From: Chloroflexota bacterium
GTDB lineage: Bacteria > Chloroflexota > Anaerolineae > Caldilineales > Caldilineaceae
Reading direction: 5' to 3'
Assembly (NCBI GenBank): GCA_003577005.1
Contig: QEUW01000199.1
Span: 1-13,452, forward strand
DNA: 13,452 bases
In this document: positions 1 through 13,452 of the stretch, piece after piece
How positions within the stretch are numbered: the stretch's first letter is position 1
How the letters are laid out: the number at the start of each line of letters is the position of its first letter
Notes under the pieces: generated by a model
Seen by the model: only the letters and a program-made list of their open reading frames with translations
The model's database searches: none
What the model was told of the DNA's origin: nothing
Translations under genes and position numbers: made by a program

Positions 1-594
1 CGCAAAGGCGGCGTACAGCTCGGCCAGCTCCCGGGCAAACACCTGCATTGACCACCCGTCCGACACGATATGGTGCATCGTTAGGAGAAAAACATAGTCA
101 GCCTCTCCCACCTGGATCAATGTGGTGCGTAAGAGAGGCGCCTGCGCCAGATCAAAGGGCTGGCGCGCCTCCTCAGTCGCCAACCGTAACGCTTCTGCCT
201 CGCGGACCGATGCCGGTACTTCCCGCAGGTCAAGGAGGGGGAGAGGAACCGCGACGCTAGGCGCGATCTGTTGTTGTGGGTTTCCATCTTTTGCGATAAA
301 CGAGGTACGCAGAGATTCATGCCGTTGCACCAGCTCGTTGATGCTCTGCTCCAGCACCGGAACATTAAGCCACGTTCGATAACGGAGCGCCAGTGAGATG
401 TTATAGAACGGATTGTCGGGCACAAGCTGAGCCAGGAACCAGAGTCTTTGTTGGGCAAAAGATAAGGGTGAAGGATCCCTTCCCTGCCGGCGGGGAATTG
501 CCGCGGCCGGCGTGCCGGCCCCCTCGCGTTCTTTTAGTAATTGTTCCAACAATGCACGTCGATCGGATGTTAGTTCAAACAAGAGCTTACTCAT
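1..594 (-). CDS. Nonribosomal peptide synthetase, N-terminal condensation domain (partial, runs off the window)
   Basis: The minus-strand frame is open from the ATG at 594 to the window edge, giving 198 residues with no stop. It shows the ordered core motifs of an NRPS condensation domain: SFAQQRLWFL (residues 45-54), RHESLRTSF (91-99) and the catalytic HHxxxDG as HHIVSDGW (174-181). Condensation domains join the amino acyl group on the upstream carrier protein to the one on the downstream carrier. The HHIVSDGWS form is typical of LCL-type domains, but a starter domain that accepts a fatty acyl group cannot be excluded. No adenylation or carrier domain precedes it, so the enzyme either extends a chain begun elsewhere or begins with an acyl group. 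A GGAG Shine-Dalgarno lies 11 nt before the ATG. The gene follows the thioesterase by 37 bp on the same strand, as in one operon. The family is clear; the product and substrate are unknown. Confidence 0.93.
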   Translation of the reverse strand, partial: MSKLLFELTSDRRALLEQLLKEREGAGTPAAAIPRRQGRDPSPLSFAQQRLWFLAQLVPDNPFYNISLALRYRTWLNVPVLEQSINELVQRHESLRTSFIAKDGNPQQQIAPSVAVPLPLLDLREVPASVREAEALRLATEEARQPFDLAQAPLLRTTLIQVGEADYVFLLTMHHIVSDGWSMQVFARELAELYAAFA

Positions 595-631
595 ATCACA
601 AGCATCTCCGTTGAAACGGGTCAAGTAACAG

Positions 632-1444
632 TCAACTGAGGTCAACTGCTAACATTTCTAGAAGCTGTTCGCGTGCACTATGGATAAAGAAATGATTGCC
701 AGGCAGCATCCGTAGATGAAAGGTATCTTCCGTTTGTTCGCGCCAGGCTTCCAATTCCTCTCGCCTGATTTCTCTATCCTCTATTCCGCCAAAAGCCATG
801 ATGGGACAACTCAAAGGACGCTGGTAGATGTGGGTGTATGTTTCACAGACAGCAAAATCGGCGCGCAAGGCCGGTAGAAGCAGTCGCGTCAACTCTTCGT
901 TCTCTAGAACCTCATCCGGCGTGCCTTCTAGGCGGCGCAACTCAGACAGGAACTCTCCATCTGGCAGATCGTGAATGGCTGGATCAGGGTCAGGGAGCTG
1001 AGGAGCTCTGTAGCCTGACACGTACAGTCGCAGCGGACCCATGCTGTTCCGACGGCGTAGTTCCCGCGCGAGCTCGAAGCTGACCAGCGCTCCCATGCTA
1101 TGACCGAAGAAGGCAAACGGAAAATCATTCAGATATGGGTGGAGATGATCCGCGAGGGCCGGGATCAGGGCCTGCAAACGATCGTAAGGCTTTTCCGCCA
1201 GCCTGTCTTCTCTACCGGGAAGTTGGATGGGGCAAAGCTGGATGCCAGCGGGCAGGTCTTCCGCCCACGTACGAAAGATCGAGACCCCACCTCCCGCATA
1301 TGGGAAGCAAAAGAGGCGTAGGTGCGGCTCTAGGCGTTGCGAGGATTCTCTAATCCAGGAACTGTGTATCTGAGGTCTTTTTGTGGAATTGAATGGTGGT
1401 TCTTCTGGCGCAACGTCAATCTCAGCCGCTGTAAGTTGCTTCAT
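632..1444 (-). CDS. Type II thioesterase (GrsT/TEII-like), NRPS-associated
   Basis: This encodes a 270-residue alpha/beta hydrolase of the type II thioesterase family. Such proteins clear wrongly loaded or stalled acyl groups from the phosphopantetheine arms of NRPS/PKS carrier domains in the cytoplasm. The family signature LRLFCFPYAGGG is near residues 43-54. The nucleophile elbow GHSMG places Ser116, the acid is probably Asp223 (GGIED), and the catalytic His251 is in PGNHFF. About 28 residues before the usual WIR start are extra and poorly conserved in style. The ATG at 1444 is preferred over the in-frame TTG codons at 1450 and 1453; none has a convincing Shine-Dalgarno. The gene lies 42 bp after the repeat-protein gene and 37 bp before the NRPS gene, which fits a single transcript. 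The function is well supported; the exact start is less so. Confidence 0.93.
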   Translation of the reverse strand: MKQLTAAEIDVAPEEPPFNSTKRPQIHSSWIRESSQRLEPHLRLFCFPYAGGGVSIFRTWAEDLPAGIQLCPIQLPGREDRLAEKPYDRLQALIPALADHLHPYLNDFPFAFFGHSMGALVSFELARELRRRNSMGPLRLYVSGYRAPQLPDPDPAIHDLPDGEFLSELRRLEGTPDEVLENEELTRLLLPALRADFAVCETYTHIYQRPLSCPIMAFGGIEDREIRREELEAWREQTEDTFHLRMLPGNHFFIHSAREQLLEMLAVDLS

Positions 1445-1486
1445 AATCAACAAGCCATCACACGTGGCATCCAGGTACTGAGCAGT

Positions 1487-1954
1487 CTACACGGATGACA
1501 TCGATTGAGCCGATCCGTCGGAGAGCCTGCCGGCGACCCCCCTAGAGGCAGCAGCCAGCCAACTAGCCATACTAAGGCTCTGGCTAATCGCCGCCAGTGT
1601 CAGCGCATTCATTTCTTCTAGATCACTCTCCACCCACGCCTGGCGCACAGACTGTAAATAGGTCTGATATGCCTCTTGTGTGCTTGCCTGCAAATCCGCG
1701 GATGAGAGGGACTTTTCAATGATTGCTATGTACGCCTTCCACGCGTCCACCATCCGCGTACGGATTTCATGCTCCATCAATTCCTGTAGCACTTGAGCAT
1801 ACTTCTGGTACACCACAGCGCCATCCTGCTGGACTTCCGGCGACATCCAGACCGGTTGGAACGCCTGTAGAAAGGTGGCATAGGCGGAGAAGAAACGCTC
1901 AACAGTTTGCTGGTTTGGTTCGGTTGGGTGAGCTTGGGCTTCCGCTTCGCTCAT
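1487..1954 (-). CDS. Small helical-repeat protein with four 24-residue YxxY repeats (paralog of the upstream gene)
   Basis: I do not recognise a named family. From the ATG at 1954 (AAGG about 10 nt upstream) it has 155 residues. A start at 2116 would add a non-repetitive, poorly coding-like 54 residues. Residues 17-111 form four units of about 24 residues, beginning at 17, 41, 64 and 88 (one unit is a residue short). Each has an aromatic at position 9 and another at position 12, for example SAYATF, VVYQKY, DAWKAY and EAYQTY. They are followed by an alanine-rich hydrophobic helix (about 115-137) that matches the end of the paralog at 2165-2812. There is no signal peptide, no transmembrane segment of full length and no catalytic motif. 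It is predicted to be all helical. Its place directly before the thioesterase and NRPS suggests a role tied to that pathway, perhaps scaffolding or product binding; this is inference only. Confidence 0.82.
   Translation of the reverse strand: MSEAEAQAHPTEPNQQTVERFFSAYATFLQAFQPVWMSPEVQQDGAVVYQKYAQVLQELMEHEIRTRMVDAWKAYIAIIEKSLSSADLQASTQEAYQTYLQSVRQAWVESDLEEMNALTLAAISQSLSMASWLAAASRGVAGRLSDGSAQSMSSV
1622..1906 (-). repeat. Four tandem 24-residue coding repeats in the shorter repeat protein
   Basis: Four units of 72, 69, 72 and 72 bases encode the helical repeats. The protein pattern is conserved (aromatic at positions 9 and 12, hydrophobic at 15-16 and about 20). The bases themselves are diverged, so the duplication is old. 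Confidence 0.75.
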
Positions 1955-2164
1955 TTTCTTAGACCCTTCTTCTGTTGAATCTACATCAGTTCTGGTAAAC
2001 AAAACGGACAATGAGGCGCCTCTATGTTTGTCGCATTTTATCGCCGCTAGAAATCGAGGATCTCCTCTCCTTCTCAATTCCTCAGAGGCGGCCTTTATTC
2101 CTGAGATTTGGGGCAAGCTGAACTACTGGCTCAATACCAGCGCTGAGATACTTGCTGGGGAGGA

Positions 2165-2812
2165 TCAGACTTGCTGTCCACTCGATGGCGCAGCGGCTTC
2201 CATATAGGCTGCCGATAGCCAGCGCTGGCGTAAAGCCCCACCTGCAGCGGCGGTTAATAATGCGGCAGCCGTAAAATTCTGAGCGACAGCAACAAGTGTA
2301 TTCGCGTCAGGAACCTCAGGATCTTGCTGAGACAAAGCCTCCTGCATCGCTCGAATGTAATCGCGATAGGCATCTCTCATCCTCTGCTGAACTTCCTCAG
2401 GCGCCAATGCTACACCTAAGTCTCGCAGGTATTTTCGATACGCTTCTACAGCCTGTTGCTGAGCGTTGATTGGATTCCAAGCCTGCTGTAGTGCCTCCAC
2501 ATATCCTCGATATGCATCGGTAACATGTTGTTGTGCCTCGGCAGGCGCCCCGGGGGCTTGCAATGCTCTTAAATAGTTCTGGTACGCATCAGAGACTTGT
2601 TCCTGCATCTGTTGTGGCGTCCACACCTCTCTCAATGAATTCATGTAGCTGCTGTAAGCCTCTGAAGTCTGCTGCTGAGTTTGTTGTGTTGCCCATGCCG
2701 CCAATAAGTTTCGGGCGTAATTGTAGTAAGCCTCTGCAAAACGCTGCTGCACTTCCCTGCTGGAGGCTGCCTGCTGTGCTTGCTTTTCCATGTTTTCACC
2801 TTCCGTTTCCAT
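2165..2812 (-). CDS. Helical-repeat protein with six perfect 24-residue YxxY repeats
   Basis: I do not recognise a named family. From the ATG at 2812 it has 215 residues. Residues 21-164 are six contiguous units of exactly 24 residues. The pattern is QQ at positions 2-3, Asp/Glu-Ala-Tyr at 7-9, Tyr at 12, hydrophobic at 13 and 16, then a helix-starting turn near the unit end such as TPQQ, NPIN or APEE. Each unit therefore looks like one amphipathic helix with its tyrosines on one face. An alanine-rich hydrophobic helix follows (about 168-190), shared with the paralog at 1487-1954. No signal peptide, membrane anchor or enzyme motif is seen. Start choice is uncertain. ATG 2812 has AAGGAG 6 nt upstream and gives a short acidic N-terminus like the paralog. 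GTG 2908 has GGAGGT 7 nt upstream and would add a strongly charged Glu/Arg-rich stretch. ATG 2791 also has an AAGGTG. It is the first gene of the NRPS operon. Confidence 0.82.
   Translation of the reverse strand: METEGENMEKQAQQAASSREVQQRFAEAYYNYARNLLAAWATQQTQQQTSEAYSSYMNSLREVWTPQQMQEQVSDAYQNYLRALQAPGAPAEAQQHVTDAYRGYVEALQQAWNPINAQQQAVEAYRKYLRDLGVALAPEEVQQRMRDAYRDYIRAMQEALSQQDPEVPDANTLVAVAQNFTAAALLTAAAGGALRQRWLSAAYMEAAAPSSGQQV
2321..2752 (-). repeat. Six tandem 72-bp units coding for 24-residue helical repeats
   Basis: The 432-bp block divides into six exact 72-bp units with no insertion or deletion between them. Protein-level identity is concentrated at QQ, (D/E)AY and Y; synonymous and surface positions differ. 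The array is therefore kept by selection on the protein rather than being a fresh DNA expansion. Confidence 0.85.
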
Positions 2813-3235
2813 TTCCCTCTCCTTATGAGGTGGTGTCACTTTGGATCTGCGTTGAGCGCGTCTTCGTGGCCGCTTTTCTTCTTCAACATTGGGCTCAGTA
2901 TCATTCACGTGGATAACCTCCGATTTCATCCGACCTTTTTCCACTTGAGTTAATGAGAAAAACTGGTTGATCCACTTCTCACTCACACTGATTATCCCAC
3001 TGCGCTGCAAGTTACTTTGCTGACAATCGAAATTAACAGAAGAATAAGATTGATGAACAGGGGAGTGCTGGTACAGTGAAGTAGAGGCAGAAGAATGTCC
3101 AAGATTCGCCAACAGCGATGCAGTACTGCAAATTGCTCAAGGGCAGGAAAATCTGAACACTCTGTGAGGCAAATGGAAAGGACGAAGGCGAAAGAAAGTT
3201 GAAATGATTATGAAGTGCAAAAAAATGATATTTAC
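2813..3235 (-). other. Long leader of the NRPS operon with several competing translation starts
   Basis: From the predicted transcription start near 3229 to the chosen ATG at 2812 there are about 417 bases. The repeat-protein frame is open from 3112 onward. In it, GTG 2908 (GGAGGT, 7-nt spacer), ATG 2812 (AAGGAG, 6-nt spacer) and ATG 2791 (AAGGTG) all have credible ribosome sites. The part between 2908 and 2812 would encode a charged EEEK...RPRRR-type segment. The part before 2929 is AT-rich and does not look like conserved protein. Confidence 0.5.
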
Positions 3236-3264
3236 ATTTTAGCACTTTTGGAACCTGCTGTCAA
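3236..3264 (-). promoter_or_regulatory. Sigma70-type promoter of the repeat-protein/TEII/NRPS operon
   Basis: Read on the minus strand there is a perfect -35 TTGACA (3259-3264), a 17-base spacer and a -10 TAAAAT (3236-3241), five of six matches. Transcription would begin near 3229 and read into the repeat-protein gene. The surrounding DNA is AT-rich compared with the rest of the window. No other equally good promoter was seen between here and the NRPS gene. Confidence 0.72.
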
Positions 3265-3277
3265 CCCCTCGCAAATA

Positions 3278-3293
3278 TGTGATAATTTTCACA
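3278..3293. promoter_or_regulatory. CRP/FNR-family-like operator (TGTGA-N6-TCACA)
   Basis: The bases form perfect half-sites TGTGA (3278-3282) and TCACA (3289-3293) around the six-base centre TAATTT. This is the consensus layout of CRP-type binding sites. The centre is about 56 bases upstream of the predicted start of transcription and about 21 bases above the -35 box, where an activator could act. Which regulator binds is inference. Confidence 0.5.
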
Positions 3294-3435
3294 AATAAGT
3301 TCTTACAACTGATACCCTCTCATTCTCGGTCGTTCGCGCGATGCAACGTCTCGACCCACACTTGGAGCTGTTTCTGGCTAACGATTTGATTGACAAGATA
3401 CGTTTGGGAAGAAGCAGCAGAGGTGGTGGTTATCT

Positions 3436-3543
3436 GGAAAGGTCCTGATCGATGCTACAAGAGACTGGGGCAATATTGAAAGGGCTTTCGCCCTGCCGGA
3501 AGGAATTAAGCCAAACCAACAACAGTCAACTCGATTTGAATGA
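3436..3543 (+). pseudogene. Possible C-terminal stub of an enzyme gene (UbiD-like, weak)
   Basis: The plus frame reads GKVLIDATRDW near its start and continues for 35 residues to a TGA at 3541-3543. The stretch (K/R)xxIDATxxW resembles the C-terminal end of UbiD-family decarboxylases. Upstream, the same frame soon reaches stops and no start codon with a ribosome site exists, so any gene here is broken. The match is short and I am unsure of it. The rest of 3301-3587 holds nothing else that I can identify. Confidence 0.25.
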
Positions 3544-3587
3544 GCAGGCTACTGAGGTTAAAGGCCTGCTGAGGTGCAGTTCTGTAG

Positions 3588-3776
3588 CTAGTTGTTGAAG
3601 AGGATGACGCTGCCGGCCGTGCATAGGTTGTACTGCACCAGCTTATTGGCAGTGAACGGCAGCCGTACGTTCTTGGGCGGCTCCCCCTTGGTCACCAGAT
3701 AACGCGATGGGTCATCCTGATGCCAGGTGTCGATCCCGGCGCCGGGTGGCGTCTTGAACGACTTGTTGGCGAAAAG
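3588..3776 (-). pseudogene. Remnant of a phytanoyl-CoA dioxygenase (PhyH)-like gene
   Basis: The minus frame has coding-like third-position GC and reads FKTPPGAGIDTWHQDDPSRY, then PPKNVRLP and LVQYNL. This follows the core of PhyH-family Fe(II)/2-oxoglutarate dioxygenases, in which WHQD supplies the His and Asp iron ligands and PxNVRLP follows. It is far too short for the family (about 250-300 residues). The N-terminal part is absent: the frame runs straight into the end of the MalG-type permease gene and offers only a TTG start. The ending AGSVILFNN resembles a motif that normally lies some 50 residues later, before the second iron-binding His, suggesting an internal deletion. PhyH-like genes are often found beside sugar transporters in related bacteria, so this may once have been the distal gene of the transporter operon. 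Homology is by eye only. Confidence 0.5.
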
Positions 3777-3816
3777 GGTTGACTGGATACAGATGATATA
3801 CACAAACCAGACAAAA

Positions 3817-4737
3817 TCAGCCGCGCAAGGCAAACCCCTGGACACCCTCAACGAAGTAGCTTTGCAGACGCAAGAAGAGGATGATCAACGGCACCGTGGC
3901 GACCGTCGCCAGTGCAAACGAGAACGGGTAATCCTGCAAGATCGTTCCTGGCGGGTAGCCTTTTACCTGGGCGCCGACAAAGAGCATCCGCTGGATACCC
4001 AGGGAGAGGGTCCAGATCTGTTGGTTGCCCGAGCTGACGATCAGCGGCCACTGGTAGTCGTTCCAGATCGCCACAAACTGGAAGATGACCAAGACCGTCA
4101 ACACCGGCTTGAGCATGGGCAGATAGACATGCCAGAGCACCTGCATGGTGTTAGCGCCATCGACGCGCGCCGCCTCCTCGAAATCGCCAGGGATGCTGTA
4201 AAAGGTCTGGCGCAGCATAAAGATGTAAAAGACGTTGACCAGCCCCGGAATCAACAACGCCGGCCACTCGTTGACAAACCCATGCCCACCCTGGCCCAGC
4301 CAATCGTTGCCACCGGCGCCGGGGAAGCGCGCCATCATCACGTAAGTGGGGATCCAAAAGACGATGCCTGGAATCATCAACGAACTGAGCAGGTAGAGAA
4401 AGACCAGCTCGCGACCCCGAAATCTCAGGCGGGCAAAGACATAGCCAGCCAGCACCGCAATCGCACCCGGCACGACGATATACCAGACACAGCGGATGAT
4501 CGTATTAGCGATCCACTGCCACAGGGCCACGCGAGCGCCAAATTCCGGGCGGAACATCACGCTGTAATTTTCCAAGTAAACTTTGGTCGGGATCGGCAAC
4601 CACGGGCTGGCGTAGAAATCCTCCAGGTCGGTCAGCGAACCCATAAACGCATAGACCATGGGAAACGCCATCAGGACGCTGCCGGTGATCAGCACGGTGT
4701 AGATAAAGACCTGCCACCCACTCACCCGTCTACGCAT
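3817..4737 (-). CDS. Carbohydrate ABC transporter permease, MalG type (CUT1)
   Basis: This 306-residue inner-membrane protein is one half of the channel of a CUT1 sugar importer. It begins with a short basic N-terminus (MRRR) followed by a hydrophobic helix (about 9-32). It has six hydrophobic segments in all, and the cytoplasmic EAA loop at 188-211 (EAARVDGA ... LPMLKP) that docks onto the ATPase. The C-terminal ending FVEGVQGFALRG is near the usual (Q)RxxVxGLTxGAVKG-type tail of MalG homologs. The start at 4737 has a good GGGAGG Shine-Dalgarno 4-5 nt upstream. It lies 85 bp after the partner permease gene on the same strand. Substrate cannot be read from the sequence; an oligosaccharide or other carbohydrate is likely. 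Family assignment is firm. Confidence 0.94.
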   Translation of the reverse strand: MRRRVSGWQVFIYTVLITGSVLMAFPMVYAFMGSLTDLEDFYASPWLPIPTKVYLENYSVMFRPEFGARVALWQWIANTIIRCVWYIVVPGAIAVLAGYVFARLRFRGRELVFLYLLSSLMIPGIVFWIPTYVMMARFPGAGGNDWLGQGGHGFVNEWPALLIPGLVNVFYIFMLRQTFYSIPGDFEEAARVDGANTMQVLWHVYLPMLKPVLTVLVIFQFVAIWNDYQWPLIVSSGNQQIWTLSLGIQRMLFVGAQVKGYPPGTILQDYPFSFALATVATVPLIILFLRLQSYFVEGVQGFALRG

Positions 4738-4822
4738 TCTCCCTCCCTTCGCACCACTTGAGATCGTAATCTGCTCACCCCATCACCTCCAATCTCCGGT
4801 CCCCAGTCTCTGCACTCCACCC

Positions 4823-5767
4823 TTACGACTCCGCCTGACCGCGGCTCAGCAGACGCATATTGGTGATGCTAAAGGCTAGCAACACTACCGCCGTAATCAC
4901 CGACCCTGCCGCGGCCAACCCCAACCGCGTGTTGACAAAGGCGTCGTTGTAGATCTGCAACAACATGACATTTGTCGTGTTGGAAGGCCCACCCGCCGAG
5001 ATGAGCAACACCGACTCGAAGATCTGAAAGCTGCCGATCATCCCCGTCACCATGACAAAGATCACCATCGGCCTCAGCAGCGGCAGCGTGATGTAGCGCA
5101 ACATATCCCAACGCCGCGCGCCATCCACCATGGCCGCTTCGTAGATCTCACGGTGGATGCCCTGGAGCGCCGCCAAAAAGAGCACCACCGGCCCGCCAAT
5201 GCCACGCCAGATCGAGTAGAGGATGATAAAGCTGCGCATCCACGCCGTACTCACCGTCCAGATGACAATCGGCTGGCCCAACGCCTTGAGAATGGCGTTG
5301 AAGATGCCATCGTAGGGCGAGATGAAGGCAAAAAAGACCTGCGCCGTGATAGCCGCCGAGGTGAGGGTGGGGATATAAAAGGCGGCCCGATAGGCGCCGC
5401 GGCCAAAGACTTTCTCGTTGAGCAACAGCGCAATCAAGAAGGCCAACGTCGTCTGCACCACCAGGATCACCACGGCAAAGAGGGTGGTGTTAAACAGGAT
5501 CAATGGATAGGGTGGGCGCAGATAGGTGCGATAGTTCGCCAACCCCACCCAGACCGGACTTTGGTAGACCCCACTCCAACTGGTAAAGCTGACATACAGG
5601 TTGGCTACCACCGGAAAGATAAAGAATGCCGAATAGTAGACCAGGATCGGTGTCAGGATCAGCCACGCCTCAAACGGTTGGCGATGCCGGTGCCGCCAGC
5701 GCGTCCACCGTTCTCGCAGCGACAGGGGTGGCAGCGCGGTCATGCTCTGCTCCACCGATGCACTCAT
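4823..5767 (-). CDS. Carbohydrate ABC transporter permease, MalF type (CUT1)
   Basis: From the ATG at 5767, with GAGGAG 8 nt upstream, the protein has 314 residues. An in-frame upstream start at 5863 would add 32 residues that fall in the hairpin region and look non-coding. It has a cytoplasmic N-terminus rich in Arg and His (about 18-31), a first helix at about 34-62, further membrane segments, and the EAA loop at 210-233 (EAAMVDGARR ... LPLLRP). With the MalG-type protein it forms the membrane channel of the importer in the cytoplasmic membrane. The tract SAGGPSNTTNVMLLQIY (about 257-273) is typical of MalF/UgpA-like permeases. It follows the binding-protein gene across a 148-bp structured gap. 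Family is firm; the transported sugar is unknown. Confidence 0.94.
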   Translation of the reverse strand: MSASVEQSMTALPPLSLRERWTRWRHRHRQPFEAWLILTPILVYYSAFFIFPVVANLYVSFTSWSGVYQSPVWVGLANYRTYLRPPYPLILFNTTLFAVVILVVQTTLAFLIALLLNEKVFGRGAYRAAFYIPTLTSAAITAQVFFAFISPYDGIFNAILKALGQPIVIWTVSTAWMRSFIILYSIWRGIGGPVVLFLAALQGIHREIYEAAMVDGARRWDMLRYITLPLLRPMVIFVMVTGMIGSFQIFESVLLISAGGPSNTTNVMLLQIYNDAFVNTRLGLAAAGSVITAVVLLAFSITNMRLLSRGQAES

Positions 5768-5831
5768 GAGCACTACTCCTCGAAGTTGATGCGTTGCACA
5801 CACAGTGTGCGCTGCACCTGCATCCTCTTGC

Positions 5832-5882
5832 GGCGCCAGAGGTGCATTGCACCCGTCAGGCACGATGCACCATGCTGGCGCC
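5832..5882 (-). other. Stem-loop between the binding-protein and permease genes, with competing stem
   Basis: GGCGCCAG (5832-5839) pairs with CTGGCGCC (5875-5882), and GGTGCA (5841-5846) with TGCACC (5866-5871), making a long stem with a small bulge. The same AGGTGCA (5840-5846) can instead pair with TGCACCT at 5813-5819. A further hairpin GCACAC-ACA-GTGTGC sits at 5796-5810. There is no T-run after it in the direction of transcription, so it is not a standard terminator. Such hairpins after binding-protein genes often protect the upstream mRNA, giving more binding protein than permease. Confidence 0.6.
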
Positions 5883-5915
5883 CCTCTTCCGACAGCCTCT
5901 GGTGACTCGACCCTG

Positions 5916-7253
5916 TTAGGCTTGCATGGCCGCCATGGCGGCGTCCTGCGCCTCGTCCATCAGTTGGAGCACCGGCTCTTCGGTTGTCAGCAGCTTTGTG
6001 ATCAGATCGTTGTAGACGGTCCAGATCTTCTGCGGATCTTTGCGCCACTGCGGCAGCACGCCCAGGTCGGCGTTGAGCAGCAGATCGATGAAGATCAGGT
6101 CGGCGTCGCTGGCGCTTTCCTTGAGTCGTTCGAGCGCGCTACGGGTTGAGGGTTTCCACCCAAAGATGGGCGCCACCAAGTCTTGCACGTCGTCTTCGAG
6201 GAAGCAGCGACAGAGGTAGAGCGATTCCTCTGGATACTTTGTCTGCGACATGACCGACTGGATCACGTTGCCCACCACACCGGTCGCGGGGATACCATCC
6301 TCGTCGGGGATGGGGATCGCCGAGTACATGGCGTTCTCCAGCCCAGTGTCCTGGGCCCATTTGACATGCCACGAGCCACAGATCTGCATGGCCGAAACGC
6401 CCTGGAACAACTGGGTATAGACCTGTCCCTCATCAGGGTTGAAGCTCAGCCCGGGCGGTGTAAAGCGGTGGAGTTCGCGCAGGAAGGTCAACACCTTCTC
6501 GCTCTTGGGGTTGTTGAACCAGGGCTGTACATCTTCGGTCGCCAGGTCGGCGCCCGCCGTCTTGCTGTAGACGGCAAAACGCAAGATCCCCCCGATGAGA
6601 AAACCCACCGGCCCTTGCAGCGTATAGCCATAGTATTCGCCATTGCCGGCATTGGTAATCAGCTCGGCCTGTTCGAGCAGTTCGTTCCAGGTTTGCGGCG
6701 GCGTGGTGGGGTCGAGACCGGCCTGCTCGATCACGTTCGGGTTGCGCTCAAAGGCAAAACACCCAGTGACCTGCGAGATGCCATACATCTTGCCGCCGGT
6801 GACCGCCGCCGCATAGGTGCCCTCGATGAGATCATCCTTGATGTCGGCCACCAGATCATCCATCGGCAAAAACGCGTTCTGCTCTGCATAGGGCTGGATG
6901 TAGTTCTCGCCGACGATGATGTCGGGCGGGGTGCCGCCGAGCAGCGCCGTCACCAGGTTCTGGCGCAATTCCTCATCCCACCCCATGTTGACAAAGGTAA
7001 AGGTCGCATCGGGGTACTTGGCGTTGAAATGGGCGAGCACAGCATCCTGATACGGTTTTTGCGGCTCATTGGCCGGGTCCATGCCAAAGAGGCTCCAGCC
7101 AATCACCTCGACGGGCGCGGTGGCGGGCGCCGCGGCGCCCTGGCCCGGTGCCTGCGCCGGGCCTGAGGTGCAGGCGGCCAATGCCGCACCGGTGATCGTC
7201 ACGCTGGAAAGTTGAAGAAAGCGCCGGCGGGACAGACTCTGTGTGCGCATCAT
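5916..7253 (-). CDS. Sugar ABC transporter substrate-binding lipoprotein with Tat signal (SBP family 1, CUT1)
   Basis: From the ATG at 7253 (AGGAGG 8 nt upstream) the protein has 445 residues. The N-terminus has the twin-arginine motif SRRRFLQ (residues 8-14), a hydrophobic stretch and a lipobox LAAC with Cys28, so the folded protein should be exported by Tat and anchored by lipid outside the membrane. A Pro/Ala/Gln/Gly linker (about 29-49) precedes the mature domain. The body has the usual features of family 1 binding proteins: PDATFTFVNM, GTPPDIIVGE, a P.TWNELLEQAE segment and FNNPKSEKVL. It captures the sugar and delivers it to the two permeases encoded downstream. No ATPase gene is present nearby, so the importer probably borrows a shared MsmK/UgpC-type ATPase from elsewhere. 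An upstream in-frame start at 7295 would put 14 non-signal residues first and has no good ribosome site. Confidence 0.95.
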   Translation of the reverse strand: MMRTQSLSRRRFLQLSSVTITGAALAACTSGPAQAPGQGAAAPATAPVEVIGWSLFGMDPANEPQKPYQDAVLAHFNAKYPDATFTFVNMGWDEELRQNLVTALLGGTPPDIIVGENYIQPYAEQNAFLPMDDLVADIKDDLIEGTYAAAVTGGKMYGISQVTGCFAFERNPNVIEQAGLDPTTPPQTWNELLEQAELITNAGNGEYYGYTLQGPVGFLIGGILRFAVYSKTAGADLATEDVQPWFNNPKSEKVLTFLRELHRFTPPGLSFNPDEGQVYTQLFQGVSAMQICGSWHVKWAQDTGLENAMYSAIPIPDEDGIPATGVVGNVIQSVMSQTKYPEESLYLCRCFLEDDVQDLVAPIFGWKPSTRSALERLKESASDADLIFIDLLLNADLGVLPQWRKDPQKIWTVYNDLITKLLTTEEPVLQLMDEAQDAAMAAMQA

Positions 7254-7330
7254 GTTCCGTTCCTCCTGATTCGGTTTTTTACTCAATTTGGACAAAAGGG
7301 AGTGTTACGCCGTTCTACGGAAAGAATGAC

Positions 7331-7344
7331 CGGGCAATTGCCCG
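7331..7344. repeat. Perfect 14-bp palindrome in the transporter operon leader
   Basis: CGGGCAATTGCCCG is identical to its reverse complement. It lies about 80 bases after the predicted transcription start and about 78 bases before the binding-protein ATG. It could be an operator for a dimeric repressor or a small RNA hairpin; nothing in the window says which. Confidence 0.45.
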
Positions 7345-7429
7345 TCTTCCAGGCGCCAGTAGCTCATGACCGGACGCTCTGCCACAGGCCAGAGATCGCT
7401 GGTTGTCCACCATCGTATCCGCAGCTTGA

Positions 7430-7459
7430 GTAATACCATATCTGCATTTTCATTGTCAA
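7430..7459 (-). promoter_or_regulatory. Promoter of the sugar transporter operon, with LacI-like site over the -35 box
   Basis: On the minus strand a perfect -35 TTGACA (7454-7459) is followed after 18 bases by TATTAC (7430-7435), a four-of-six -10 box. The leader would be about 170 bases. The bases 7454-7469 read TGTCAAATCGTTTTCA, an imperfect palindrome about a central CG, like operators of LacI-family repressors that control sugar uptake. The operator reading is inference. Confidence 0.5.
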
Positions 7460-7475
7460 ATCGTTTTCAAACGCC

Positions 7476-7533
7476 CCAAGATGCCCAAGAAGCAAGATTT
7501 TTGGGAAAAACCTCGCTTCTTGGGCATCCTTGG
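7476..7533. repeat. Long inverted repeat (18-19 bp arms), dispersed hairpin element
   Basis: The left arm (7476-7493, containing ATGCCCAAGAAGC) and the right arm (7515-7533, containing GCTTCTTGGGCAT) are complementary except for one extra base. The 21-base centre holds TTTTTGGGAAAAA, itself a small hairpin. The core TTTT..GGAAAA..CC.CGCTTCTT also occurs at 10355-10379, so this is probably one copy of a repeat family dispersed between genes. Confidence 0.6.
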
Positions 7534-7619
7534 TCAAAAAGCATTCGCTAAAGTTTGCCAATAAACCAGCTACGGCTACCATCCACCTACAGTTTGAGCC
7601 ATCCGGCGGCCATCCGTGC

Positions 7620-7625
7620 TATAAT
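7620..7625 (+). promoter_or_regulatory. Consensus -10 box for a leaderless mRNA
   Basis: TATAAT ends six bases before the ATG at 7632, so transcription should begin at or next to the A of the start codon. No ribosome site precedes the ATG, which fits leaderless translation. No -35 at normal spacing is evident; TTGAGC at 7594-7599 would need a 20-base spacer. Confidence 0.6.
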
Positions 7626-7631
7626 TGAGAC

Positions 7632-9182
7632 ATGACCGCTAAGATGATCGATTTTCAGCAACGTCGCCAACTGGAACAGGCGTTGGCTAATCTGAGCAAG
7701 ACAGAAAACGAACTGGAACTCATCGAAGCTGCCCGGCGGATCGCTCACGAGTTTCCCTCTGAAACAGTTCTGCCGGCGCTTATCCGCCACCTGGACACCG
7801 CCGACAGCCAGACGCGCGGCGGGTTGGGCCATCTGGCCGCGCTCTTACCTCAAGAAGAGGTGACCGATGCCCTGCGCAGCGCGGCAGCCGACCGGCGGCG
7901 CAGCCCCCTGGCGCGTATGACCGCCACAGCCATCGCCCAGCGCTATTTGGGGGTCGAGTTCCCCGCTGCGCTCACCGGCGACCTCAACAGCGCCGGTGAC
8001 GCCGCCTTTCAAAGCCTGCTCGAAGCCATCACCGAGGGCAAACGCAACCGCCACATTCTGCTCGAATATGTGGAGCAGATGCGCGAGTTGAGCGAGGAGA
8101 TCGCTTTCCTGGTGATCGAGGCGCTGGGCCGCACCCCTCCAGCCGATCAGGTGGAACTGCTGCGCCTCATCGCCCAGGATCACCGGCTGCCAATCGCCCG
8201 AGCGGCGTTGGCCGCACTGGAAGCGCTGGCCTCAACCGAGGCAGGGCCACTGGCGATACGTGCGTTGCACACGCTCCAGTTTGTGCTGCCGGAGGATCTG
8301 GCCGCTCTGGCCGAGCGCAACATCCGCAAGCTGCGGATGGCCGGTCGCCGCCATGAACCGCTCGAGCCGGCCGGCTGGCGCAGCCTCCTCAGCCCCGCCG
8401 ATCCCAACGGCAACCAGACTGTCTGGTTGGTCAAGACGCCGGTGGAACAGGGGGAGAATGGTGTGTTGCTTGGCTTCACCGTCAACCTGGGCGTGGGCGT
8501 TGTCCGCTTTTTTGGCAGCGAAAGGGTGGAGACATCTGTATTGCCGGCGGCGCAACCACCCGGCCAGTTGATCACCCTCAATGACGACAGCGGCGGGCAG
8601 ACGACCGTCCTCACAGCACCGTTTGACTACGGTCGCTGGCTCGTGGCTGAGGCCATCCAGGCCCACCTGGCTGCGACCCCTCCGCAAGCTCTGCCCGGTG
8701 AGTTGCAACTGTACAATGACCTTATCTGGCAATTTGCGCCTCCACACCTCGCAGAGGAACTTCAGCCTTTCTGGAAGAGTGATGCGAATGTGGGCGCCAG
8801 CGCCCCCGAAGCGTTGGAGGCGGCGACCGCCGCCCTCTTTGCGCATCCAATCATGGCGCACTGGATGTTGCCGGGACATGCGATTGTCCAGGCAACGCCG
8901 GCAGCGGCGCGCCCGGACCCCACCTGGCCGCTGACCGAAATTGTTGGGGCACTGCTGCGCGAGATTGCCCGCTGGCCAGAGAGTGCGACATTGGGTCCTG
9001 CGCTCCAGCGCGCATTGCAGGGCCAGGCTGCCTGGCTCCACCTGGCCGGCGAAGAGGCGCTGGCGCAACAGGCGCGGCGCCTGGCGCAGGCCGTTCCCCA
9101 CTTGTCGATCCCGCAAAACCCTGTTCTGGCGCAGATGTTGGCCCGCAGCCTTCAGCGCCGGCCACCAAGCGCACAGAGATGA
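7632..9182 (+). CDS. HEAT-like helical-repeat protein of unknown function
   Basis: The 516-residue protein has no enzyme motif that I recognise. Residues about 43-240 are a run of paired helices in the style of HEAT/ARM repeats (for example LPALIRHLDTADSQTRGGLG and LPIARAALAALEALAS), usually a protein-binding surface. Residues about 255-335 are predicted to be strand-rich (GVLLGFTVNLGVGVVRFFG), and about 400-516 are again helical. There is no signal peptide or membrane segment, so it is probably cytoplasmic. The start at 7632 lies directly after a TATAAT box and suggests leaderless expression; Met5 at 7644 is the alternative and also lacks a Shine-Dalgarno. Its stop overlaps the next start as ATGA (9179-9182), so the two proteins are probably translationally coupled and may act together. 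The function is unknown. Confidence 0.85.
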   Translation: MTAKMIDFQQRRQLEQALANLSKTENELELIEAARRIAHEFPSETVLPALIRHLDTADSQTRGGLGHLAALLPQEEVTDALRSAAADRRRSPLARMTATAIAQRYLGVEFPAALTGDLNSAGDAAFQSLLEAITEGKRNRHILLEYVEQMRELSEEIAFLVIEALGRTPPADQVELLRLIAQDHRLPIARAALAALEALASTEAGPLAIRALHTLQFVLPEDLAALAERNIRKLRMAGRRHEPLEPAGWRSLLSPADPNGNQTVWLVKTPVEQGENGVLLGFTVNLGVGVVRFFGSERVETSVLPAAQPPGQLITLNDDSGGQTTVLTAPFDYGRWLVAEAIQAHLAATPPQALPGELQLYNDLIWQFAPPHLAEELQPFWKSDANVGASAPEALEAATAALFAHPIMAHWMLPGHAIVQATPAAARPDPTWPLTEIVGALLREIARWPESATLGPALQRALQGQAAWLHLAGEEALAQQARRLAQAVPHLSIPQNPVLAQMLARSLQRRPPSAQR

Positions 9183-10339
9183 CCGCAGCAGAACTCATCC
9201 AGGCTATCCACAACAGCGCAACGCGCGCCGTCATCGTGACCACTGGCGCCGGGTCGCAGGCGCTGGCCGATCTGCTCGCCGTGGGCGGGGCTAGCCGCAC
9301 GCTGGTCGAAGGGGTGATCCCCTATAGCATGGCTTCACTCGCCGATTTTTTGGGCCACACGCCCGAACAAGCGGTGGCCGCCTCCACTGCCCGTCTGCTC
9401 GCCGGCCGGGCGCTCACCCGCGGCCGCTGGTTGGAAGGAACCAGCCCCGTCCATGTTGGCCTGGCCTGCACCGCCGCCATTGCATCGGACCGCCCCAAAC
9501 GCGGCGAACACCGGGCGCATGTCGCACTCTGGCGCCCCGAACGGTTGGTGGAATTCAGTTTGCACCTGGAAAAAGGTGTACGCGACCGGGCCGGCGAAGA
9601 GGCATTGGTCAGCCATGTGCTCCTCAATGCCCTGGCCGATGCGTGCGGGCTGGCGGAGCGGCTTCCGCTTGCGTCAGGCGCCGGGGACCGGCTGGCGCGC
9701 GCGAGTTACGAGTACAGTGCGCTGGCCGACCAATTGCAGCAGGGCGAACGGTCCTGGTTCGGTCTGCGTGCGGATGGCGTGATTCTTTCGTCCGCAGAGA
9801 CACCACGTGTCATTGTGGCTGGCTCGTTCAACCCACTACACGAAGGGCATTTGGGCATGGCGCACGCTGCCGGACAACTCTTGGATAGCCACTTGGAGGG
9901 CACGGTCACATTCGAGTTGTCCGCCGCCAATGTGGACAAGCCGCCGCTGCCGCCCGCCACCATACTCGACCGCATCGCCCAGTTCGCCGGGCGTTACCCG
10001 GTCTGTGTGAGCAATGCGCCCACGTACGTAGAGAAGGCGCGTCTCTATCCTGGCGCCACCTTTGTCGTCGGCTACGACACAGCGGTGCGCATCTTTGACC
10101 CCAAGTATTATCAGAATAGCGCCAAGCAGATGATGGCCGCCCTCGACGAATTGCGTGAGCAAGGCTGCCGTTTCCTGGTCGCCGGTCGCACCGATAGCCA
10201 GGGCATCTTCCGCACCCTGGCAGATATCGAGGTGCCACCCGCCTTTGCTGACCTCTTTCGCGCCATCCCCGCCGATCTCTTCCAATCAGATATTTCGTCG
10301 TCGGAGTTGCGGGCACAGGGTATGCGCGGCAGCCGGTGA
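9179..10339 (+). CDS. CinA/PncC-like domain fused to NadD-like nucleotidyltransferase
   Basis: The 386-residue protein has two domains. Residues about 3-160 resemble the CinA C-terminal/PncC fold (nicotinamide-nucleotide amidase), with alignable blocks VTTGAGSQALADLL, VEGVIPYS and VGLACTAAIAS. The usual ESCTGG serine segment, the lysine after YSN and the GIAGP loop are not kept, so this half is probably inactive as a deamidase. Residues about 208-380 are a nucleotidyltransferase of the NMN/NaMN adenylyltransferase type, with GSFNPLHEGH (215-224, HxGH-type signature), FVVGYDTAVRIFDPKYY (295-311) and ISSSELR (372-378, the ISSTxIR equivalent). It probably transfers AMP in NAD or related cofactor synthesis, with ATP. 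The gene overlaps the HEAT-like gene by ATGA, indicating coupled translation. The family is well supported; substrate and the role of the first domain are not. Confidence 0.85.
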   Translation: MTAAELIQAIHNSATRAVIVTTGAGSQALADLLAVGGASRTLVEGVIPYSMASLADFLGHTPEQAVAASTARLLAGRALTRGRWLEGTSPVHVGLACTAAIASDRPKRGEHRAHVALWRPERLVEFSLHLEKGVRDRAGEEALVSHVLLNALADACGLAERLPLASGAGDRLARASYEYSALADQLQQGERSWFGLRADGVILSSAETPRVIVAGSFNPLHEGHLGMAHAAGQLLDSHLEGTVTFELSAANVDKPPLPPATILDRIAQFAGRYPVCVSNAPTYVEKARLYPGATFVVGYDTAVRIFDPKYYQNSAKQMMAALDELREQGCRFLVAGRTDSQGIFRTLADIEVPPAFADLFRAIPADLFQSDISSSELRAQGMRGSR

Positions 10340-10350
10340 GTCTGAGCGAA

Positions 10351-10371
10351 GGGGCTTTTCGGAAAAGCCCC
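10351..10371. repeat. Perfect hairpin after the nucleotidyltransferase gene, second copy of the dispersed element
   Basis: GGGGCTTTTC and GAAAAGCCCC form ten-base arms around one base, twelve bases after the stop codon. GCTTCTTTGG follows. The core and right flank match the centre of the inverted repeat at 7476-7533. It may also end the upstream transcript, although no T-run follows. TAAAAT at 10382-10387 could be a -10 box for the next gene, but I see no convincing -35 box. Confidence 0.55.
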
Positions 10372-10426
10372 GCTTCTTTGGTAAAATCAAGCGATATTGC
10401 CAAAGTAGACCACAAAGGAGAAGCGA

Positions 10427-12049
10427 ATGCCCAAGCTGACCGGCGGCGAGGCGATTGTCAAGTCGTTGATTGCCCACGGTGTCGAGACGATCTTTGGTCT
10501 GCCCGGCGTACAGAACGACTGGTTCTACAACGCGCTCTATGACGAGAAAGATAAGATTCGAGTCATCCACACGCGGCATGAACAGGGTGCGGCCTATATG
10601 GCGTTGGGCTATGCGCAATCGACCGGCAGAGTAGGCGTCTACAATGTCGTCCCCGGCCCCGGTCTGCTCAATACGTTGGCCGCCCTTTCCACCGCCTACG
10701 CCACCAATGATAAGGTGCTCTGTCTCACCGGCCAGATCGCCTCGACCAGTATCGGCAAGGGTTATGGTTTGTTGCACGAGATCCCCGACCAGTTGGGGGT
10801 GCTGCGCTCGCTCACCAAGTGGGCCGAGCGGATCAACGCCCCGGCTGAGGCGCCGGCACTGGTGGCCGAAGCGTTTCGCCAGTCGCACAGCGGCCGGCCC
10901 CGCCCGGTCGGTCTGGAGGCGCCGCCCGATGTGCTCGCCGCCAAAGCCGAGGTAGCGCTGACGCCGCCGGTTCCACCTTCCTCTCCGCCGCCAGTGGATT
11001 TGGACGCCATCGACGAGGCCGCCCGGCTGCTGGCCGCGGCCAAACAGCCACTTATCTTTGTGGGGAGCGGCGCCATCGACGCCGCCGAAGCGGTGCGCGA
11101 ACTGGCCGAAGTGCTCCAGGCGCCGGTCATCGCCAGCCGCAGCGGGCACGGCATCCTCAGCAGCCGCCACCCGCTGAGCCTGCGTATGCCCGCTGCCCAT
11201 GTGCTCTGGCCGACAGCCGACGTCGTCCTGGCCATCGGCTCCCGCTTACAGGTGCCGCTCCAAAACTGGGGCTACGATGACGACCTCAAGGTGATCCGCA
11301 TCGACATCGACCCAACCGAGCACCAGCGGATCGCCAAACCCGCGGTCGCTATCACCGCACGTAGCCAGGAAGCGGTGCCCGCCCTGGTGGCCGCTGCGAG
11401 CAAGTATGCAGGTGTTCGGGCCTCACGCCAGGAAGAACTGGAGGCGCTCAAAGCGGAGATCGATGAGCGCAGCGCCTTCTTGGAGCCGCAGATGAGCTAC
11501 CTCAAAGCCATCCGCGCCGAGCTGCCCGAGGACGGTTTTTTTGTCGAGGAGATGACCCAGGTCAGCTATATCAGCCGTTTTGCCTTGCCAGTCTACCACC
11601 CCCGCACCTTTATCACCTGTAGCTATCAGGGGACACTGGGTTGGGGCTTTGCCACGGCGCTGGGCGTCAAAGTCGCCCACCCCGACAAGGCCGTGATCTC
11701 GGTCAACGGCGACGGCGGCTTTCTCTTTACCGTGCAAGAGCTTGCTACCGCTGTGCAACACAAGATCAATAGCGTCACGCTAGTCTTCAATGATGGCGCC
11801 TACGGCAATGTCAAGCGGATGCAGCAACAAAACTATGGCGGTCGTGTCATCGCCAGCGAACTGCAAAACCCCGACTTTGTCAAGCTCGCCGAAGCGTTTG
11901 GTGCGCAAGGGCTGCGCGCCCACACACCCGACGACTTGCGCCGCGCCATCCGCCGCGGGTTGGAGAGCGACCTTCCCACCGTTATCGAAATCCCCGTGGG
12001 GGAAATGCCCAGCCCGTGGCCCGTATCTATGTTGCCGAGGGTGCGTTGA
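10427..12049 (+). CDS. Thiamine-diphosphate-dependent enzyme, acetolactate-synthase-like
   Basis: The 540-residue protein has the three-domain layout of the acetolactate synthase/pyruvate oxidase superfamily. The N-terminal Pyr domain has FGLPG (23-27) and RHEQGAAYMALGYA, whose Glu52 is the catalytic glutamate that activates ThDP. A central domain (about 190-325) has FVGSG and the RIDIDP strand. The C-terminal PP domain has GDGG (428-431) and FNDGAYGN (454-461), which bind the Mg-diphosphate. The usual synthase segment after GQ (GQVP...) is replaced by GQIASTSIGKGYGLLHEIPDQ, so it is probably not the housekeeping IlvB, and no small-subunit gene follows. It likely decarboxylates or ligates an alpha-keto acid, substrate unknown. 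GGAG lies 6 nt before the ATG. The racemase-like gene follows on the same strand and may share the pathway. Confidence 0.88.
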   Translation: MPKLTGGEAIVKSLIAHGVETIFGLPGVQNDWFYNALYDEKDKIRVIHTRHEQGAAYMALGYAQSTGRVGVYNVVPGPGLLNTLAALSTAYATNDKVLCLTGQIASTSIGKGYGLLHEIPDQLGVLRSLTKWAERINAPAEAPALVAEAFRQSHSGRPRPVGLEAPPDVLAAKAEVALTPPVPPSSPPPVDLDAIDEAARLLAAAKQPLIFVGSGAIDAAEAVRELAEVLQAPVIASRSGHGILSSRHPLSLRMPAAHVLWPTADVVLAIGSRLQVPLQNWGYDDDLKVIRIDIDPTEHQRIAKPAVAITARSQEAVPALVAAASKYAGVRASRQEELEALKAEIDERSAFLEPQMSYLKAIRAELPEDGFFVEEMTQVSYISRFALPVYHPRTFITCSYQGTLGWGFATALGVKVAHPDKAVISVNGDGGFLFTVQELATAVQHKINSVTLVFNDGAYGNVKRMQQQNYGGRVIASELQNPDFVKLAEAFGAQGLRAHTPDDLRRAIRRGLESDLPTVIEIPVGEMPSPWPVSMLPRVR

Positions 12050-12053
12050 TGAA

Positions 12054-12093
12054 TGACGATAGACGATGGACGATGGTCTATCGTCTATCGTCA
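12054..12093. repeat. Perfect 14-bp inverted repeat made of heptamer units
   Basis: TGACGATAGACGAT (12054-12067) and ATCGTCTATCGTCA (12080-12093) are exact reverse complements around a 12-base loop. The left half is built of seven-base units of the form GACGAT(A/G). It fills most of the gap between the ThDP enzyme stop (12049) and the next ATG (12119). No T-run follows, so termination is doubtful. Confidence 0.6.
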
Positions 12094-12118
12094 CTTCCAC
12101 AAACAAGAGTGCCAAACC

Positions 12119-12790
12119 ATGACCAGGAAAATCACCTTACTCCACACCGCCGCCAGCAACGTCGCCACCTTTGACCAGCTTTTGCGCCAACTGGCGCCCG
12201 ATATTCCGGTCGAGCATATCCTCGACGAGAGCCTGCTGCAAGAGGCGCGCACAGCCGGGCAGATCACACCTGAGCTTGCCAGCCGCATCGGCGAGCGGAT
12301 TTTGGGCGCCAGCGAAGAGAGCGCCGTGGTGCTCTGCACCTGCTCCACCATCGGCGGGGCAGCGGAGCAGGTACGTCACCCCAGCGCCGGGCCCGTGCAA
12401 CGCGTGGACCGCGCCATGGCCGAGCGCGCCGTAGCGCTCGGTTCGCATATCGTCGTGGTGGCGGCGCTGGCGAGCACGCTGGCGCCCACCCGCGAGCTCG
12501 TGCTGGATGCCGCCCGGCAAGCCGGGAAGACGGTGACCATCACCGAACTGTTGTGCGAAGACGCCTGGGAGAAATTCGAGCAGGGCGACCAGGCCGGCTA
12601 CTGGCAGGCCGTGGCCGATTGTCTGCGCCAACATGCGTCCACGGGCGATGTGTTTGTGCTGGCGCAGGCATCTATGGCCGGTGCAGCAGATCTCTGCGCC
12701 GACCTCTCGGCGCCCATCCTGAGCAGCCCGCGGCTGGGGTTGGAGGCGGCCATCGCAGCGTATCGAGCTGCAGTAGGTGGCGACAACTGA
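12119..12790 (+). CDS. Asp/Glu racemase superfamily protein, second cysteine replaced
   Basis: The protein has 223 residues from the ATG at 12119. An in-frame ATG at 12053 lies in the inverted repeat and adds 22 residues unlike the family, so it is not used. The fold matches the Asp/Glu/hydantoin racemase superfamily: VVLCTCSTIGG (70-80) has the first catalytic cysteine, probably Cys75. The second-site motif, normally like LGCAGM, reads LAQASMAG (181-188), with Gln183 in place of cysteine. A two-base racemase mechanism is therefore unlikely; decarboxylase-, isomerase- or binding-type functions are possible in such relatives. Ribosome-site evidence is weak. It follows the ThDP enzyme by 69 bp and precedes the GNAT gene by 11 bp. 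Family is firm, reaction unknown. Confidence 0.85.
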   Translation: MTRKITLLHTAASNVATFDQLLRQLAPDIPVEHILDESLLQEARTAGQITPELASRIGERILGASEESAVVLCTCSTIGGAAEQVRHPSAGPVQRVDRAMAERAVALGSHIVVVAALASTLAPTRELVLDAARQAGKTVTITELLCEDAWEKFEQGDQAGYWQAVADCLRQHASTGDVFVLAQASMAGAADLCADLSAPILSSPRLGLEAAIAAYRAAVGGDN

Positions 12791-12801
12791 ACTGTGCGCA
12801 C

Positions 12802-13347
12802 ATGAATCCACAACGACAAAACGATCTCTCCATCGTAGTGGCGACCGCCGCCGAGCTGTCGAGCCAGCAACGGCAGGAGATCATCGACCTATGTACGGCC
12901 GCTTACAACGAGGAGTTTACCTTTTTCTTTGCTGCGTTGCCCAACTCGATGCACGTTCTCGGCTATCAGGCCGGTCTACTTGTGAGCCATGCGGCCTGGG
13001 TGATGCGCTGGCTGCAGCCGGCCGGTATGCACGCGCTGCGTACAGCATACGTCGAGGCAGTTGCCACTGACCCGGCGCACCAGGGCAAAGGATACGCCAC
13101 AGCAGTGATGCGCCATCTGGCCGGCCAGGTCGACGACTACGACCTAGCCGGCCTTTCACCGTCGGACCCCGCGTTCTATGCCCGCTGCGGCTGGGAGCTC
13201 TGGCGCGGGCCGCTGGCTATCCGCACGGACAATGGGCTGTTGGAGACACCCAACGAGCAGGTTATGATCTTACGTCTGCCGCGCACTCCCTCACTGGATT
13301 TGGATGCTGCGCTGAGCGCCGAATGGCGAGCAGGCGAACTTTGGTGA
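12802..13347 (+). CDS. GNAT acetyltransferase resembling aminoglycoside 2'-N-acetyltransferase, AAC(2')
   Basis: The protein has 181 residues. The acetyl-CoA site is HQGKGYA (93-99), the (Q/R)xxGxG/A motif of GNAT enzymes. Beyond that it follows the AAC(2') pattern closely: YVEAVATDP with Glu85, LAGLSPSDPAFYARCGW with Tyr126, a RGP turn after that block, and a C-terminal EWRAGELW ending in Trp181. As I recall, the mycobacterial AAC(2') proteins are also 181 residues, with a C-terminal DWRAGDVW and a tyrosine as general acid at about 126. Such enzymes acetylate the 2'-amino group of aminoglycosides in the cytoplasm; some relatives have other amine substrates. The longer in-frame ORF starting at 12553 overlaps the upstream gene and its extra residues are not GNAT-like. 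No Shine-Dalgarno is visible; the stop of the previous gene is 11 bases before, so reinitiation is plausible. Confidence 0.82.
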   Translation: MNPQRQNDLSIVVATAAELSSQQRQEIIDLCTAAYNEEFTFFFAALPNSMHVLGYQAGLLVSHAAWVMRWLQPAGMHALRTAYVEAVATDPAHQGKGYATAVMRHLAGQVDDYDLAGLSPSDPAFYARCGWELWRGPLAIRTDNGLLETPNEQVMILRLPRTPSLDLDAALSAEWRAGELW

Positions 13348-13452
13348 ACAGGGATGGCGCCTCTTTGCGCCAATCAATAGTCACCTGGCCGGGAACCCCG
13401 GCAGCGCATCGCTGGTGATCCAGGTCGTCTGGCCGACTTTCATGGGACAGCA
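13316..13452 (+). other. Open but startless frame at the window edge
   Basis: After a TGA at 13313-13315, a plus frame stays open to the window end, reading ANFGEQGWRLFAPIN and later SASLVIQVVWPTFMG. There is no ATG with a ribosome site at its beginning, and the first part overlaps the end of the GNAT gene. It could be the start of another gene beginning at a late GTG or ATG, or chance. Nothing more can be said from this window. Confidence 0.2.
13355..13372 (+). terminator. Short stem-loop after the GNAT gene (weak terminator candidate)
   Basis: TGGCGC (13355-13360) pairs with GCGCCA (13367-13372) around CTCTTT, seven bases after the stop. It is short and has no T-run, so termination is only possible. 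Confidence 0.25.

Follow-up and report, generated by a model that had tools for sequence, protein, structure and literature searches.

The described systems that come closest to the proteins analyzed here are of several kinds. Apolipoprotein-type repeats consist of tandem amphipathic helices punctuated by proline, and in this they resemble the present proteins; the phasins are similar to the latter in composition. The pyrenoid proteins gather Rubisco, and one of the families modelled in Pfam, "Diatom pyrenoid component 2" (DPC2, PF25195), enters the comparison below. NRPS clusters are mostly described by their enzymes, and if an NRPS operon were headed by a pair of repeat proteins that are dedicated to it and non-catalytic, this would suggest that the product is physically organized, stored or protected. 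The window considered here, which is the whole stretch of 13,452 nt that was analyzed, carries a candidate for such a pair, protein A (P0001) and protein B (P0002). The preferred reading, to which a probability of about one in three is given, is that A and B serve the NRPS together as a helical scaffold or adaptor without catalytic activity.

Organization of the locus

Four genes are read from the minus strand in the order A, B, type II thioesterase (TEII), NRPS, with intergenic gaps of 210, 42 and 37 nt. Protein A (2165..2812, with an ATG start at 2812 preceded by the SD-like sequence AAGGAGAGG) consists of six 24-residue units, each predicted to be a single helix, and an alanine-rich C-terminal helix, while protein B (1487..1954) has four units, at spacings of 24, 23 and 24 residues, and the same C-terminal helix. 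The TEII gene (632..1444; translated from 1438 for the Pfam search) matches PF00975 with an E-value of 5.7e-52, and the NRPS gene, which is cut by the window edge so that only its first 198 codons (594-1) are present, encodes an N-terminal part with a condensation domain (1..594; PF00668, E 1.6e-43, translated from 597). The preliminary description, which had placed the repeat pair ahead of an editing thioesterase and an NRPS, is borne out by these matches and by the common strand.

For the further claim that the four genes stand under one promoter there is a candidate site. A promoter-like site, TTGACA-N17-TAAAAT with a TG extension, lies at 3236..3264 on the minus strand (read 3264-3236); it is a consensus match only, agreeing at 11 of 12 positions. 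The two strands of 1-3900 together yield three such sites against a chance expectation of 2.8; this one is the best of them and the only minus-strand example. The gap between A and B (1955..2164) has no promoter-like or terminator-like site listed, and the RNA folding of this region (1940-2170) is ordinary, with a z-score of -0.79.

Upstream of A on the minus strand there are three ABC transporter genes of the sugar-uptake type, and past these lie unrelated genes on the other strand. Those on the plus strand include one for a protein whose C-terminal half is cytidylyltransferase-like and whose N-terminal part has a faint, sub-threshold likeness to CinA (9179-10339), an Asp/Glu racemase-like protein that falls under the Pfam cut-off (12053-12790), and a GNAT acetyltransferase that resembles AAC(2') models at 76.8 bits against a cut-off of 375 (12805-13347).

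The G+C content is 52.3% over 1-3264 and 61.7% over 3817-13452, and GC3 is 47-62% in the A, B, TEII and NRPS genes as against 70-79% in eight other genes of the window. The lower values relative to the flank fit horizontal gain, and suggest that the stretch from A to the NRPS was horizontally acquired. Relatives of the TEII occur in 594 plasmid records, and the eight best listed are cyanobacterial, with identities of up to 54.5%; in four of these TEII regions, searched with 12 kb flanks, no relative of A or B was found at a profile E-value of 1 or below.

Repeats in proteins A and B

Protein A contains six [AVS][YWF]xx[YF] motifs, at residues 30, 54, 78, 102, 126 and 150, so that the spacing is always 24. 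Its self-similarity at period 24 is 1.03, a value reached by none of 1000 shuffles, and at the DNA level there are four overlapping three-unit matches (2357-2731, minus strand), as compared with none in 200 shuffles. TRF reports no tandem array in the DNA, and the duplications that produced the repeats therefore look old. The four motifs of protein B are at residues 24, 48, 71 and 95. The self-similarity of B taken alone is insignificant, since 81 of 1000 shuffles equal its best score, and its membership in the repeat family is based instead on its homology to A. In an hhalign comparison the two proteins align with a probability of 98.5% (E 2.8e-15) over 116 columns that include the C-terminal helix, and in reciprocal profile searches among 739 ORF stretches the B profile finds A at an E-value of 2.3e-28 and the A profile finds B at 1.1e-15. 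As judged from these sequence comparisons, A and B are homologous through both the repeats and the shared C-terminal helix.

The unit consensus is hydrophobic-Q-Q/E-x-hydrophobic-x-(D/E)-A-Y-x-x-Y-hydrophobic ... L ... A-W/L-x-P, in which the Q and P positions are well marked in A and less so in B. The mean phase of the hydrophobic face lies between 306 and 330 degrees at all ten unit positions. The repeats had been described in advance as exact 24-residue units, six in one protein and four in the other, with a common pattern of QQ followed by (D/E)AYxxY. This is accurate for A; in B the counts stand, but one junction is 23 residues and the QQ is much weaker. The alanine-rich helix said to end both proteins is present as described, the alignment having conserved columns there. 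At the junction between units 3 and 4 of A (residues 89-92) the usual aromatic end of unit 3 gives way to a PGAP turn. This turn is invariant among the four A proteins and may divide A into two three-helix halves.

Relatives of A and B

Three protein searches, which retrieve only sequences sharing exact words with the query, and one of which scored the best 7998 candidates and missed P0005, found 13 relatives in about 5.8 billion proteins: three of the A type (P0003, P0004 and P0005) and ten of the B type (P0006 to P0015), of which P0006 is a longer gene call that contains B unchanged. P0003 and P0007, an A-type and a B-type protein, come from the same source and are both listed with a longest contig of 5882, which suggests that they lie on one contig and that the pair recurs. 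Scans that require exact short peptides confirmed none of the 28 and 48 pattern-matched stretches in genome contigs and none of the 22 and 95 in viral contigs; neither A, nor B, nor the idealized repeat found a match in plasmids, and the idealized repeat found none in phages.

All four A proteins have six units, and all ten B proteins in which units were placed have four. In P0003 and P0004 (unit 2), P0005 (unit 5) and P0014 (unit 3) one unit lacks the strict motif, and its position was assigned from the spacing; P0015 has one extra, overlapping motif. When each unit is compared with the units of the other proteins, P0006 being left out, its nearest counterpart carries the same index in all 72 comparisons among the four A proteins and in all 360 among the ten B proteins. 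The mean identity between units of the same index across proteins is 0.66 for A and 0.64 for B, as against 0.33 and 0.18 between units of different index within one protein. The constant number and the individuation of the units argue for a folded protein with a defined fold, rather than for a string of interchangeable "stickers".

These relatives also bear on the case in which the pair has a separate function and merely adjoins the NRPS. The 210 nt that separate A from B would agree with this, as would the fact that a single locus is seen and that its cluster is cut by the window edge. The apparent rarity of the family in these word-based searches speaks against it, as do the common strand of the genes from A to the NRPS and their distinct G+C content. 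A mere passenger pair is judged improbable.

The start of A and its N-terminal module

Protein A may start not at ATG 2812 but at GTG 2908, which lies beyond the coordinates first given for it, to judge from the sequence around the two codons, each of which is preceded by an SD-like sequence (GGAGG, 8 nt upstream, in the case of GTG 2908). The added segment (2813..2908, minus strand) would probably be a basic N-terminal tail, and with two such starts a long form of A that carries the tail and a short form are both conceivable. The tail is similar to the N-terminal end of P0005, the pI being 10.2 in the window protein and 9.3 in P0005, and the pattern K-E-x-x-M, which precedes the inner start of A, is also present in P0003, P0004 and P0005. 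P0003 and P0004 have an HhH-like domain (residues 5-72) in the position of the tail. This domain resembles parts of the PhaH, L21 and S2 models of NCBIfam, all below cut-off, and Pfam HHH_5, also below cut-off; it gives a weak PDB match to a reaction-centre O chain (E 0.0046).

The PhaH likeness raises the case of a "phasin-like" coat, in which A and B would coat a lipid inclusion or a granule of hydrophobic material, with the basic tail or the HhH-like domain as their tether to the nucleoid or the ribosome. The operon shared with the NRPS would then be explained by expression or by a lipophilic product. Both proteins are cysteine-free, rich in alanine and glutamine, amphipathic and small, as such a coat would have it. 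The match to the PhaH model NF045508, however, is confined to positions 167-232, the HhH part, and reaches only 33.1 bits (E 6.2e-8) for P0003 and 26.2 bits (E 7.7e-6) for P0004 against a cut-off of 250, and the L21 and S2 models likewise match this domain. No phasin family of Pfam is among the rows listed at E-values up to 1 (for P0005, the best 25 of 26), and the phasin domain itself was not found in A or B. When charge is taken into account, four of the ten units of A and B have a D value above the lipid-binding threshold of 0.68. A membrane or granule coat, which the preliminary description had offered as an option, is not favoured by this last result and is considered unlikely, though it retains some weight.

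Predicted structure and family assignment

AlphaFold models place the helices of A at residues 2-42 (the N terminus and unit 1), 45-65, 68-87, 92-114, 117-138, 141-163 and 172-208, and those of B at 15-30, 42-58, 62-82, 85-109 and 117-147. The models have a mean pLDDT of 58.8 for A and 61.5 for B, and are based on thin alignments of 4 and 10 sequences respectively. The predicted helices coincide with the units, in agreement, at low confidence, with the earlier proposal of one helix per unit with a proline or N-cap turn. At the level of predicted secondary structure both proteins are tandem arrays of helical units of constant length, apart from the one 23-residue spacing in B. Fold comparisons of these low-confidence models give scores no different from those that an arbitrary helical bundle would be expected to give.

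No convincing match to the PDB was obtained with the natural profiles of A and B. The idealized A repeat, composed of seven units, matches 8cwy (E 1.6e-9), 8cws (3e-9) and 5cwb (0.0015), and gives weak matches to PPE41 chains (E 0.004-0.005). In the family scans of idealized repeats, ApoLp-III is among the best 25 matches listed only when the unit is cut to 22 residues. Neither A nor B reaches the curated cut-off of any Pfam or NCBIfam family, and family scans that included these two collections produced no convincing catalytic family. The preliminary description, which did not recognize the family, is supported to this extent. Literature searches, whose coverage leaves out most subscription papers, found nothing on this repeat family or on DPC2. 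The sole match for "DPC2" together with "pyrenoid" concerns river metals and was rejected, and "DPC" does not occur in PMC13159521.

Hydrophobic ligands can be bound by helical bundles whose core is aromatic, and A and B could accordingly bind the product, or protect the cell from it, by sequestering the peptide intracellularly, a role for which a position at the operon head beside the thioesterase and the NRPS would be suitable. The models allow no judgement of a pocket, and the NRPS that would define the product is cut at the window edge; this role is judged to be quite unlikely.

Similarity to a diatom pyrenoid component

The only repeat-specific family match of A is to PF25195, which is found in all four A proteins at E-values of 4.7e-8 to 3.1e-7 (P0001 33.8 bits, P0003 33.6, P0004 31.2 and P0005 32.4), in each case short of the curated cut-off of 70 bits. 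The matches cover 81-101 residues in one register, with profile position 19 at the first tyrosine of unit 3. Two reversed and two shuffled controls gave no match at E-values up to 0.01, and none of four natural B proteins matched (P0002 at E-values up to 1; P0007, P0013 and P0015 at up to 0.01). Precomputed annotation of P0003, P0004 and P0005 carries PF25195.2; that of P0005 also lists PF23841.3 and PF27150.1, of which, in its own Pfam scan, PF23841 is below cut-off and PF27150 is absent among the best 25 of 26 rows.

The dependence of the match on the repeat can be seen with idealized sequences. The idealized A repeat scores 66.7 bits at a period of 24, 50.4 at 25, 40.3 at 23 and 37.6 at 22, and drops to 15.5 bits when tyrosine is replaced by alanine; the idealized B repeat scores 57.1 bits. 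PF25195 does not appear among the 14 rows for a shuffled unit or the best 25 of the 34 rows for the reversed repeat. The similarity is specific and repeat-dependent by these measures, although perfect repeats inflate the scores of other families as well, spurious values being obtained for TRAM (42.3, forward), PCRF (58.2, reversed) and RepD-like_N (44.0, shuffled unit). We infer that the DPC2 profile probably holds a 24-residue tyrosine repeat of the kind found in A, and the likeness could reflect either homology or convergence.

Such a likeness raises the possibility that A and B are the multivalent linker or shell of a condensate, in which the NRPS would be drawn together by tyrosine/arginine helices to form a compartment without a membrane, much as Rubisco is by pyrenoid proteins. 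The match in every A protein and its loss in the reversed and shuffled controls are in keeping with this, together with the preference for period 24 and for tyrosine. They must be set against the failure of every match to reach 70 bits, the spurious scores of ideal repeats, and the lack of a match in the natural B proteins scanned. The units, moreover, are individuated and constant in number, as interchangeable stickers would not be. A condensate of this kind is very unlikely on balance, and only a slim chance is given to the more specific proposal that A and B form the linker or shell of a bacterial NRPS compartment with the same 24-residue tyrosine helix repeat as the diatom component. If that proposal were true, one repeat type would organize two enzyme assemblies that are unrelated to each other and come from different domains of life.

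Discussion

The preferred reading of A and B as a scaffold or adaptor pair is based on the constancy of unit number and identity, with one predicted helix per unit and a uniform phase of the hydrophobic face; on the match of the idealized A repeat to designed helical repeats and the absence of a convincing catalytic family; on the common strand, short gaps and shared lower G+C content of the A, B, TEII and NRPS genes; and on the common source of the related pair P0003 and P0007. On this reading A and B are old paralogues with all-alpha repeats, in which, according to the low-confidence models, each unit may be one amphipathic helix of about 20 residues, N-capped in most units of A by an x-P-(E/Q) turn. 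Each unit would pack on its neighbours through a face of aromatic, leucine and alanine residues, and the C-terminal helix, rich in small residues, would close the array. The two proteins might assemble with one another through the shared C-terminal helix or the aromatic faces, giving a cytoplasmic, non-catalytic scaffold or adaptor that could bind the NRPS and the editing thioesterase and might affect peptide synthesis, while the variable N-terminal module of A, a basic tail here and HhH-like in two relatives, might act as a tether.

The relation of the pair to known systems differs from one system to the next. Apolipoprotein-type repeats have a period of 22 residues, unlike the 24 of A and B. 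The phasins, PhaH in particular, are of similar size, and the HhH part of PhaH resembles the domain of P0003 and P0004, but A and B show no phasin-domain match, and the HhH-like domain also matches the L21 and S2 models. The idealized unit aligns with the de novo designed helical repeats 8cwy, 8cws and 5cwb along 138-156 residues, and the repeat length is similar, although it is the idealized consensus that matches and not the natural A and B profiles. DPC2 belongs to the algal plastid and A and B to a bacterial NRPS setting; A scores below the DPC2 cut-off, the scanned natural B proteins show no match, and the match leaves the C-terminal helix of A outside. A and its three relatives do share with DPC2 a match that is consistent in register and depends on a period of 24 and on tyrosine, and this likeness provides a concrete and testable lead.
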